A DNA stretch of 64,000 nucleotides from Pseudarthrobacter phenanthrenivorans Sphe3 (GTDB lineage Bacteria; Actinomycetota; Actinomycetes; Actinomycetales; Micrococcaceae): positions 3,286,001 through 3,350,000 of the forward strand of contig NC_015145.1 of the NCBI RefSeq assembly GCF_000189535.1, in the 5' to 3' direction. Each line of letters begins with the position of its first letter. Positions within the stretch are counted from its first letter, which is position 1. Below, piece by piece: positions 54,128 to 57,019 of the stretch. The translations under genes were made by a program, and so were the position numbers. The notes under the pieces were generated by a model. The model was not told the origin of the DNA. It worked only from the letters and a program-made list of their open reading frames with translations, and did not search any database.

Positions 54128-54151
54128 CCCCGCCCCTCCCCCTCCCCTCCC

Positions 54152-54183
54152 CGGACGCTCTCTCACTTGATGCGCGTTTCCCC
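54152..54183 (+). repeat. 32-bp repeat unit left of the IS30 element
   Basis: One unit beginning CGGACGCTCTCTCACTTGAT and ending GCGCGTTTCCCC. The same unit resumes at 56901, on the other side of the IS, so the element sits within the array. Confidence 0.8.
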
Positions 54184-54967
54184 CGGGCGGGTTCAAGGGG
54201 TTGTTGCAACACCTGAGTGATTGGGGTGTTGTTATGGGCTTTGGTCGGCCTGAGATGTTGCGTGAGGTGGTCCGGGTTTTCTGGGAGGCGAGGTCTTCTG
54301 GATCATCTGATGAGTTCGCCGCGGAGGCGGCCGGTCTTTCCCTGTCAGCGGCCCGGCTGATCGTCCGTCAGCATGGTGGAGTGAATCCTGGAATTAGGCC
54401 TGCCTGCCGACGGTTCTTGTCCTTTGATGAACGCGAGCTGATTGCCGTGTGGCGGGCGGCCGGGTGCGGGGTGCGTGAGATCGGCCGGCGTTTGGGCCGG
54501 AGCCCGTCCACGATCAGCAGGGAACTGGGCCGGAACATCCGTAATGAAGGCAAGCGCCCCTACCTGGCGTCCTCGGCCCAAAACCGGGCGCAGAAGCTGG
54601 CACGCAGGCCCAAGATCCGGAAGCTGGCTTCCAACGAGGCCTTGGCACTCTACGTCGCCGGGATGTTGACGGCCCGGGAACGGTTGTCCCCGGAACAGAT
54701 CAGTGTCCGGCTGCGGATCGATTTCCCCGATGATGAGAGCATGCGCATCAGCCCCGAGACGATTTACCAGTGCATCTATATCCAGGGCCGCGGCGGGCTG
54801 AAGGCCGAGCTTGCCGCTGCCCTGCGGACGGGCCGGGCCGTGCGCCAACCGAACCGGCGGGCCGGGAACCGAAAGCCCCGGGTCCCGAAGGAACTGCTGA
54901 TCAGCGAACGCCCCGCGGAGGCCGATGACCGGGCCGTGCCCGGACACTGGGAATCTCAATGTTTCTG

Positions 54968-56170
54968 TCAAGCCGCCTGAGCGGTGATGCGTGGCATTGG
55001 TTCCTGGTAGATGGTGTGGTCACGGAGCATCGCCCAGAGGACGTTGATGCGACGTCTGGCGAGGGCGATGAGGGCCTGTTTATGCGACTTTCCTTCTCCG
55101 CGCTTCCGGTCGTAATAGGTTCTTGAGGCCGCGCTGTTCTTCAAGCTGGAGAGGGCGGCGAGGTAACAGGTCCGCAGGAGCCTGCGGTTAAAGCGACGTG
55201 GTCGGTGCAGGTTCCCGCTGATTCGTCCGGAATCGCGCGGGACGGGAGCCAGCCCCGCGACGCTGGCGAGCCGGTCGACTGAGTCAAACGCGTCCAGGTT
55301 GCCGCCGATGTTCGCGAGAAAAGTAGCTGCGAGTACGGGGCCGAAGCCCGGCATGGTGAGCAAAACATCGGCGCTGTCGTGCTTCCCGAACAGGTCCGTG
55401 ATCTGGGCATCGATGCCGGCGATCTCCGCATCGAGAGTGCTGATTTGCCCGGCCAGCCGGACGACCAGGGCAGAGCCTGTGGTCTGAGTTGGCAGTACGG
55501 TGTGCTGGGAGTTTGCGGCTATCAGTGCCTTCTCTGCCATCTTGGCACTATTGCGGCAGCCGCGTTTCCTCAGCCAACCGGTGAGCCGAGCTAGTCCGAT
55601 CCGCCGGATGCCCTCGGGTGTCTGGTAGCCGCCCAGGAGGACCAGGGGCGCCTGTTTGGAGTAGTCGAACGCACGCTCGAGAGCCGGGAAATATTCCAGC
55701 AAGGTGGCGCGGAGCCTGTTGATCGCCCGGACACGGTCGCAGATCAGATCCGTACGGCGGGCGGTGAGGAGCCGCAGGTCAACGCTGATCTGGTCCGTGC
55801 GGCGGACTGGTTGGAGGTCCGTGCGCATCCGTGCCTGGTCAGCGATGATCCTGGCATCTTTCGCGTCGGTCTTGCCATCTCCGCGGTAGGTCTCCGCAGC
55901 GTGATGCACGATCCGTCCAGGTATATAGAGCAGTTGCTGGGCGTGCGCGGCCAACAACTCGATCAACAGGGCCGCTCCGCCGGAATTCAGATCCGTGGCC
56001 CAGCAGACTTCGCCCCCGGCCGCGATCTCCGCGATCGTGGCTATGAGTTCGAGCACTGCGTTTTCGTCGTTCTCGACCCGTTTCGAGAGCAGCACGGTCC
56101 CCGTCTGATCGATCACGACGCAATGATGTGCTCTTTTGCCTGAGTCGATTCCTACCCAGAATGCCGGCAT
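54968..56170 (-). CDS. IS110-family DEDD/serine recombinase
   Basis: A 400-residue transposase. The N-terminal RuvC-like DEDD domain begins FWVGIDSGKRAHH (Asp9) and includes GKTDAKDARIIADQ. The C-terminal Tnp domain carries LTMPGFGPVLAATFLANIG and ASVAGLAPVPRDSGRISG, with the catalytic serine in the latter region. This family recombines DNA under the direction of a bridge RNA. The gene is complete and its TGA forms part of a TTGACA box at the element end. Confidence 0.93.
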   Translation of the reverse strand: MPAFWVGIDSGKRAHHCVVIDQTGTVLLSKRVENDENAVLELIATIAEIAAGGEVCWATDLNSGGAALLIELLAAHAQQLLYIPGRIVHHAAETYRGDGKTDAKDARIIADQARMRTDLQPVRRTDQISVDLRLLTARRTDLICDRVRAINRLRATLLEYFPALERAFDYSKQAPLVLLGGYQTPEGIRRIGLARLTGWLRKRGCRNSAKMAEKALIAANSQHTVLPTQTTGSALVVRLAGQISTLDAEIAGIDAQITDLFGKHDSADVLLTMPGFGPVLAATFLANIGGNLDAFDSVDRLASVAGLAPVPRDSGRISGNLHRPRRFNRRLLRTCYLAALSSLKNSAASRTYYDRKRGEGKSHKQALIALARRRINVLWAMLRDHTIYQEPMPRITAQAA

Positions 56171-56224
56171 GTTCAGTCTCCTTCGATCAGCTCCAATTTC
56201 GGTTGGCCCTGTCGATAACTACGC

Positions 56225-56350
56225 CGGCACGTCCTTACCCAACGATCAATGTCGTAATTCTCAATCAGCGGTCGAGTCATCGGCGGGCAGCGGGCGGCCA
56301 TTCCCAGTGAGCCATCCAAGCGGCAGGGCGACCTAGGCCATACCCGCCAC
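56225..56350 (-). ncRNA. Predicted bridge RNA of the IS110 element
   Basis: Transcribed leftward before the transposase. Target loop: the RNA segment TCGCCCT (from 56325-56331) equals the left target flank, and CACTGGGA (from 56302-56309) is complementary to the right target flank in the element's orientation. Donor loop: ATTGAGA (from 56259-56265) equals the element's right end, and GTAAGGA (from 56232-56238) is complementary to its left end. An ACGA/TCGT stem (56242-56255) separates the donor guides and a GCC/GGC stem the target guides. Order and polarity match IS621 bridge RNA. The outer limits are estimates. Confidence 0.8.
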
Positions 56351-56900
56351 CCGAGGGTGATCGAAACACTACGACAGCTCCGAAATCACCCACAACAAAA
56401 TCGTAAGGAGGGCGATCTGATCATCGGTACCCCCGGCGCCGGGGCGATCGGAACACTCGTGGAACGCAGCAGTCGCTTCGTGATGCTCCTGCACCTGCCC
56501 AACGGACACACCGGCGAGCAGGTACTGGCCGCCATCCAGGACACCTTGCCTACGCTCCCGGCTCAGTTGCGCCGGTCCCTGACCTGGGACCAGGGCGCGG
56601 AGATGGTCGGCATTCACGAACGCGTGAAGATCGCCACCGGAGCGGACGTCTACTTCTGCGACCCTCACTCACCCTGGCAGCGCGGCAGCAACGAGAACAC
56701 CAACGGACTCCTGCGCCAGTACTTCCCCAAAGGCATGGATCTCACCAAAGTCACCCCCGAGGACCTCGACTACGCCGCAGCCGGACTCAACGGACGCCTA
56801 CGCAAAACCCTCGGCTGGAAAACCCCCGCCCAAGCCCTCCAACAAATACTGGAAGAATCAGCAGCATAGAACGTGTTGCGACCACCACTTGAATCCGCCC

Positions 56901-57006
56901 CGGACGCTCTCTCACTTGATGCGCGTTTCCCCCGGACGCTCTCTCACCTGATGCGCGTTTCCCCCGGACGCTCTATCACCTGCCGCACCAAAGGTGAGAG
57001 CGTCCG
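56901..57006 (+). repeat. 32-bp tandem repeat array with a terminal hairpin
   Basis: Units start at 56901, 56933 and 56965, each opening CGGACGCTCT and ending in a GCGCGTTTCCCC-like tail; the third is truncated. An inverted partial unit (GGTGAGAGCGTCC, about 56993-57005) lets the end fold as a hairpin, suited to terminating the adjacent leftward gene. Confidence 0.8.
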
Positions 57007-57019
57007 GGCCCGGGGGGAT

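Follow-up and report, generated by a model that had tools for sequence, protein, structure and literature searches.

Within a 64,000-nucleotide stretch of Pseudarthrobacter phenanthrenivorans Sphe3 (contig NC_015145.1, positions 3,286,001 to 3,350,000; hereafter the window), one insertion sequence lies inside the gene of another. An earlier note, made from the letters of this DNA, had claimed that the non-coding end of the inner, IS110-group element encodes a complete bridge RNA, with four guides matching the insertion site and the element ends. We asked whether these short matches are the guides of such an RNA, and whether the interrupted gene is an incidental landing place or a standing target.

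The element, its guides and their fold

The element (Table 1) encodes a recombinase scoring 163.9 bits against DEDD_Tnp_IS110 and 66.9 bits against Transposase_20, both above the curated cut-offs, and phmmer links it to ISCro4 and IS621 recombinase chains. The catalytic serine, S314, is present in the motif GLAPVPRDSG, in agreement with the serine motif G--P----SG as given in PMC11187229. By position, residues D9, D60, D102 and D105 are candidates for the RuvC-like acidic residues, D11, E60, D102 and D105 in IS621; D102 and D105 fall in a KTDA.DAR stretch aligned with ISCro4 in a weak domain hit, and D60, an aspartate where IS621 has E60, is placed by count only.

The non-coding ends measure 238 bp upstream of the recombinase gene and 16 bp downstream. 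A long upstream end, as found here, is the layout of the IS110 group (in IS1111 it lies downstream), and the bridge RNA is therefore expected on the minus (recombinase) strand. Numbering the ends as in IS621 and placing the exchange after T9, the left junction runs from target ...C8 T9 into CCTTAC, and the right junction from ...ATTGAGA T8 T9 into CCCAGTG. The core reads TT in the donor and CT or TT in the target, and its position 8 may therefore differ.

TTGAC is found at the right end in 42 of the 44 relatives with both ends. Once a circle joins the ends of the window element, TTGACA and the -10-like TACGAT are spaced by 17 bp and, by analogy with IS621, would form the promoter of the circle. 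The recombinase stop codon lies within the -35-like TTGACA (54966-54971).

Table 1. Coordinates of the element, its putative bridge RNA and the interrupted gene in the window
Feature	Position	Strand	Basis or remark
N-terminal half of interrupted IS30 transposase	54201..54951	plus	HTH_38
C-terminal half of interrupted IS30 transposase	56409..56869	plus	rve from profile position 25
IS110-group element, 1457 bp	54952..56408	minus	IS621 numbering: donor position 10 (56408) to donor T9 (54952)
DEDD recombinase (transposase), 400 aa	54968..56170	minus	Pfam and phmmer matches
-35-like box TTGACA in right end	54966..54971	minus	TTGAC in relatives
-10-like TACGAT in left end	56400..56405	minus	candidate, by analogy with IS621
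Bridge RNA (predicted)	56195..56395	minus	RNAalifold and pair counts, 46 sequences; RNA ends estimated
Left target guide, RNA UCGCCCU	56325..56331	minus	equals left target positions 3-9; covariation
Right target guide and handshake tail, RNA CACUGGGAAU	56300..56309	minus	match and covariation
Left donor guide, RNA AUUGAGA	56259..56265	minus	equals right end of element; alignment
Right donor guide, RNA GUAAGGA	56232..56238	minus	pairs with left end TCCTTAC; alignment
Left target positions 1-9, top strand GATCGCCCT	56409..56417	minus	inside IS30 codons
Right target and T9, top strand TCCCAGTG	54945..54952	minus	IS30 codons H-W-E

All eight short stretches named in the earlier note are exactly in place, letter for letter. 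AGGGCGA at 56325-56331 recurs in the flank at 56409-56415, and TCCCAGTG at 56302-56309 is complementary to the flank CACTGGGA at 54945-54952; TCTCAAT at 56259-56265 recurs at the element end (54954-54960), and TCCTTAC at 56232-56238 is complementary to the other end, GTAAGGA (56403-56409). The target-loop and donor-loop logic, order and polarity claimed for them fit IS621; the strand on which they had been read needs correction, the RNA being on minus.

Along this RNA the guides follow each other as left target (LTG), right target (RTG), left donor (LDG) and right donor (RDG). IS621 polarity has left guides pairing with the bottom strand and right guides with the top strand (PMC11208158), and the left guides here repeat the top strand because they would be paired with the bottom one. 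The right target guide pairs with T9 and the right target CCCAGTG, and also with donor T8 and A7. Because of this tail, which pairs with the donor end, the match with the product junction extends over 10 nt (56300-56309), and the last bases of the IS621 handshake guides pair with the donor in the same manner (PMC11208158).

Short matches chosen by eye in a GC-rich window could be due to chance, and singly each of the four does turn up in 1–8% of shuffles: in dinucleotide shuffles of the non-coding end, scored on match lengths with guide order and loop position outside the test, the observed lengths were reached in 152 (LTG), 23 (RTG), 110 (LDG) and 33 (RDG) of 2000. All four lengths at once were reached in 0 of 2000, as was their sum, which confirms that the four-guide match is beyond chance. 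Together with the covariation of guides with sites and of paired bases in relatives, described below, the shuffles refute a chance origin, whose probability we put at practically nil.

Folding across relatives, a check proposed in the earlier note, yielded compensatory changes that support a structure. RNAalifold on 46 sequences gave a fold of two stem-loop modules that both contain an internal loop; 15 of 33 pairs changed on both sides, and all four guides fall in the unpaired internal loops of the aligned fold. A second structure was drawn for the window row, guided by the alignment, and scored over that same alignment: 97.2% of cells are paired, 15 of 32 pairs show both-side changes, and pairing falls to 26–59% when one strand is slid by 1 to 3 columns. 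Its covariation score was 0.294 against 0.170 in shuffles (reached in 0 of 500, and in 1 of 500 for further pair types), with the 5' hairpin left out of these statistics because it aligns poorly.

The structure is seen from the alignment only. The single-sequence minimum-energy fold differs from it and is not unusually stable (z -0.86; 42 of 200 shuffles as good), and Rfam gave no match within the window at the gathering threshold. In two Pseudonocardiaceae loci (L032 and L038), the hairpin within the target loop is enlarged by a long additional stretch.

Guides and insertion sites across relatives

Among diverged relatives, target guides change with the insertion sites, as the earlier note had proposed to check. 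We collected 80 related loci from a genome collection, with guide anchors found in 73, the left target in 65 and the right target in 52. Left guides agreed with their own left target at 7.12 of 9 letters (best offset) compared to 5.13 for non-own pairs (n = 65), and right guides at 4.77 of 6 letters compared to 2.18 (n = 52); in permutations that ignore kinship, the own-pair match was reached in 0 of 10000 on the left and 0 of 10000 on the right.

Without the clade that targets IS30 (see below), and with identical guides counted once, the contrast persisted at 7.22 versus 5.03 on the left (n = 32) and 4.68 versus 1.82 on the right (n = 19), again with 0 of 10000 permutations on each side. In Kibdelosporangium, six copies occupy six places with a common right target, CCCCCT, and a left side that is loosely CATG-like.

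These comparisons bear on whether the recombinase protein itself selects the target, the matches in the non-coding end being leftovers of old flanks or coincidence. Such a protein would be compatible with the slight covariation of guides and own targets at variable positions within the IS30 clade. Outside that clade, however, changes in the guide go with changes in the target both on the left and on the right, the loops are unpaired within a covarying structure, and RNA guidance has been demonstrated experimentally for IS621 and ISEc21 (PMC11208160, PMC11187229). We regard protein-chosen targeting as very unlikely.

The recurrent IS30 site

The host gene of the element is an IS30 transposase gene, in keeping with the word "nested" in the earlier note. 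Joining the flanks restores its reading frame through the codons CAC TGG GAG GGC GAT (H-W-E-G-D), and because the C-terminal half matches rve from profile position 25, the insertion lies near the start of the rve catalytic domain. The Asp of GHWEGDL is, we assume, the first residue of the IS30 catalytic triad.

We inspected 60 clade loci for their target, of which 51 had both ends resolved. The H-W-E-G-D stretch of IS30 is the site in 45 of these 51, corresponding to 35 of 41 distinct flanks and many different IS30 genes; three of the 45 (L026, L034 and L184) have a codon changed or shifted. T9 is present in 35 of 35 IS30 targets in register and in 39 of 40 clade guide rows, the exception being L091. 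The IS30 site is a standing target of the element, a result beyond the first reading.

At L038, L042 and L083 the left flank is an IS30 half and the right flank is a different sequence, and L001, L005 and L191 are inserted outside IS30. The left match is poor in L191 (genome G101) and L005 (own genome), while in L001 the left guide is still matched, with a one-base slip. The earlier note had held that copies with the same non-coding end at unrelated targets would speak against it; this is the case in part, as L001 and L005 lie outside IS30 among the 11 copies in the own genome whose two ends are resolved. Off-target insertions of IS621 are on record (PMC11208160).

L005 is an identical copy of the element, inserted between CCCCCAATGT and CCCAATG, and its guide matches the right side only; CCCAATG is present on both sides of the site. 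In L083 and L038, CCTTAC or CCTTAG comes after the right end; this resembles a left end and may reflect a tandem or circle insertion.

Among relatives outside the clade, the IS30 motif was found in 0 of 43 left flanks and the GHW letters, in some frame, in 2 of 32 right flanks; a search with four flank peptides returned ordinary gene families. A Rhodococcus plasmid record with a 76% similar stretch overlapping an annotated IS30 transposase is in line with IS30 targeting.

A tree of 69 recombinases places the IS30-targeting elements in one group of 21 (support 100/99), with members from Micrococcaceae, Nocardiaceae, Microbacteriaceae, Pseudonocardiaceae, Mycobacteriaceae and Propionibacteriaceae. 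The formal label count gives three changes on the tree, accounted for by L044 and L091, two unlabelled rows within the group whose flanks are not fully readable.

The IS30 model NF033563 has 23 matches in the host genome, none of which spans the insertion site. Ten left halves all stop at profile position 139, and nine right halves, one of them broken in two, begin at position 137. The tenth, for which the junction was also read, begins at 172; the two remaining hits are one fragment and one weak match. By coordinates, the ten pairs of halves flank element copies. The L008 copy is truncated: its left end is cut off, the sequence there looks IstB-type ATPase-like by eye, and IS30 is on its right flank only. 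A pattern search for empty sites in the same genome found no exact site, and its 18 one-mismatch sites, against 12 in a backward control, are near noise. Genome G000 also contains ten more distant IS110-type matches (L014-L023, 24–37% identity), probably other elements.

A single IS30::IS110 composite, formed once and spread as a unit or by gene conversion, would leave the shared site saying little about guidance. The ten own-genome loci identical across all 1457 bp of the element agree with such spread, as do several IS30 parts: those of L002, L003, L006 and L010 differ at 0–5 positions over about 1.24 kb (L003 and L006 at 10 further positions in the stretch past the IS30 end), and L004 and L007 differ at 10 over 1359 bp, partly beyond the ends. 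Given this near-identity, not all of these copies are separate events.

Nevertheless, at least five different IS30 types carry the element in its own genome (the L002 type, L009, the L004 type, L011 and L012), L009 being 10–13% different from the L002 type in an ungapped comparison from the junction and L012 being typed by translation. Across genomes, 35 distinct flank pairs share the stretch. Composite spread therefore cannot be the full account, and we hold it improbable as the explanation of the shared site; it may explain some near-identical copies.

Very probably, the window contains an IS110-group element with a bridge RNA whose guides home to the H-W-E-G-D codons of IS30. The RNA would be made from the left end of the element, on the recombinase strand; its target loop would pair with both strands of the short site and its donor loop with both strands of the joined element ends, whereupon the recombinase would exchange strands after the conserved T. 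With guides that encode H-W-E-G-D, the element would home to IS30 copies and split them. For the guides, loops, structure, covariation with insertion sites and recurrent IS30 site, this account can be read from sequence comparison, and transcription from the circle promoter, the RNA-protein complex and strand exchange would follow the precedent of IS621.

The left guides of 40 clade rows comprise 13 distinct 9-nt sequences. Variants occur at target positions 2 (7 G, 6 A), 5 (8 T, 5 G) and 8 (9 C, 4 T), which face the third codon positions of Asp, Gly and Glu; position 1 also varies (10, 2, 1), and at positions 3, 4, 6, 7 and 9 the common letter is found in 12, 13, 13, 11 and 12 of the 13 guides. 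Since the rows are related, this codon phase is a pattern and not a test; an earlier selective tally of 27 rows agreed with it.

At positions 2, 5 and 8, guides matched their own targets hardly more often than expected, in 20, 12 and 20 of 35 rows versus 17.4, 9.8 and 20.0. Most simply, this can be read as a generalist guide, tolerant of mismatches at degenerate positions. At the glycine wobble position, clade guides are limited to G or U, but a reading in which this base would serve two codons each by wobble pairing finds no support, since only 12 of 27 guide-target pairs, and 19 of 35 once rows were added, agree with Watson-Crick or wobble pairing at that position.

Related systems and the fate of IS30 copies

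On sequence grounds, the element is a member of the IS621/IS110 bridge-RNA systems, whose mechanism is already known, and its target is the less ordinary part. IS621 targets REP elements, unlike the window element, which targets transposase codons.

According to PMC11208160, bridge RNAs are a general feature of the IS110 family. As in IS621 (PMC11208160, PMC11208158), the RNA would lie in the left end upstream of the recombinase, with two internal loops, the four guides in the same order and polarity, a near-invariant T9, handshake bases and putative -35/-10 boxes split between the ends. We do not place the element with IS621 itself because its recombinase is only distantly related (phmmer 35.5 bits, C-terminal part) and its donor core is TT, with CT or TT in the target, whereas both IS621 cores are CT; GT, AT and TT cores are reported to be active as well (PMC11208158). 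The right guide also reaches 7 nt beyond T9, compared to 4 nt including the core in IS621 (PMC11208158).

In ISEc21 and ISEc11, whose guide is termed seekRNA (PMC11187229), the upstream non-coding region of an IS110-type element likewise matches both target strands and has been naturally re-programmed between relatives; the target is different, and the word IS30 is absent from the main text of that paper. IS5075 (PMC8269217), also in the IS110 family, has its standing target in another mobile element and a known off-target insertion in ureC, but it hits transposon ends, whereas the window element hits transposase codons and splits the gene. ISKrh6 of Kocuria (PMC12500396), about 1476 bp long, is an actinobacterial IS110 element that has a seekRNA region and shares its genome with the IS30 elements ISKrh4/5/7; its target site is left open in that paper. 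Among the titles and abstract openings that searches of mostly open-access literature listed, none described an IS110 element aimed at IS30 transposase genes.

The locus provides a clean natural example of bridge-RNA targeting, legible in the DNA alone, by an element that would aim at conserved catalytic-domain codons of another mobile element. Synonymous sites form a natural library for guide-mismatch tolerance at each position, and work on programmable recombinases gains further natural guide-target pairs from this recombinase and its relatives in actinobacteria. A broader proposal, which we consider evenly balanced, is that a whole bridge-RNA clade has settled on one IS30 protein motif, its guide drifting mainly at degenerate positions; it would be a broad, long-lived hyperparasite that disables IS30 in many actinobacteria and is able to saturate a genome's IS30 complement. 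This raises the questions of whether IS30 activity drops once the element is present and whether IS30 is able to escape.

We compared 137 genomes of the genus with an IS30 match, counting a genome as element-positive when it had a left end of at least 90% identity and scoring a limited number of candidates per genome. Among the candidates scored, near-full-length IS30 (E < 1e-54) was found in 5 of 18 element-positive and 78 of 119 other genomes (Fisher p 0.0036), an observational comparison confounded by draft assemblies and kinship. Stricter thresholds gave 74 of 119 other genomes at 1e-60 (p 0.009) and 69 of 119 at 1e-70 (p 0.022) among the candidates scored, and among those of genomes with a best E < 1e-20 the counts were 5 of 16 versus 74 of 97 (p 0.0007).

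Intact IS30 copies in element-positive genomes might escape through sites that the guide cannot read, and the nine such copies that were read give a mixed picture. Seven are without a changed codon; G180 has two intact copies of one type with a changed codon, W-E-C-D. One copy in G031 is intact and its site is well matched, and G186 has left targets of one kind in both states, occupied and intact. Genomes lacking a left end of 90% identity supplied 20 intact copies; every one reads W-E-G-D, and their sites span a similar range.

In the window, a short repeat, CGGACGCTCTCTCACTTGATGCGCGTTTCC, stands on both sides of the interrupted IS30 (54145-54190 and 56900-57010), and some other IS30 copies in the genome adjoin CTCTCTCA/TGAGAGAG-type stretches. 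With the interrupted IS30 itself lying between short-repeat copies, the locus seemingly has three nested levels.
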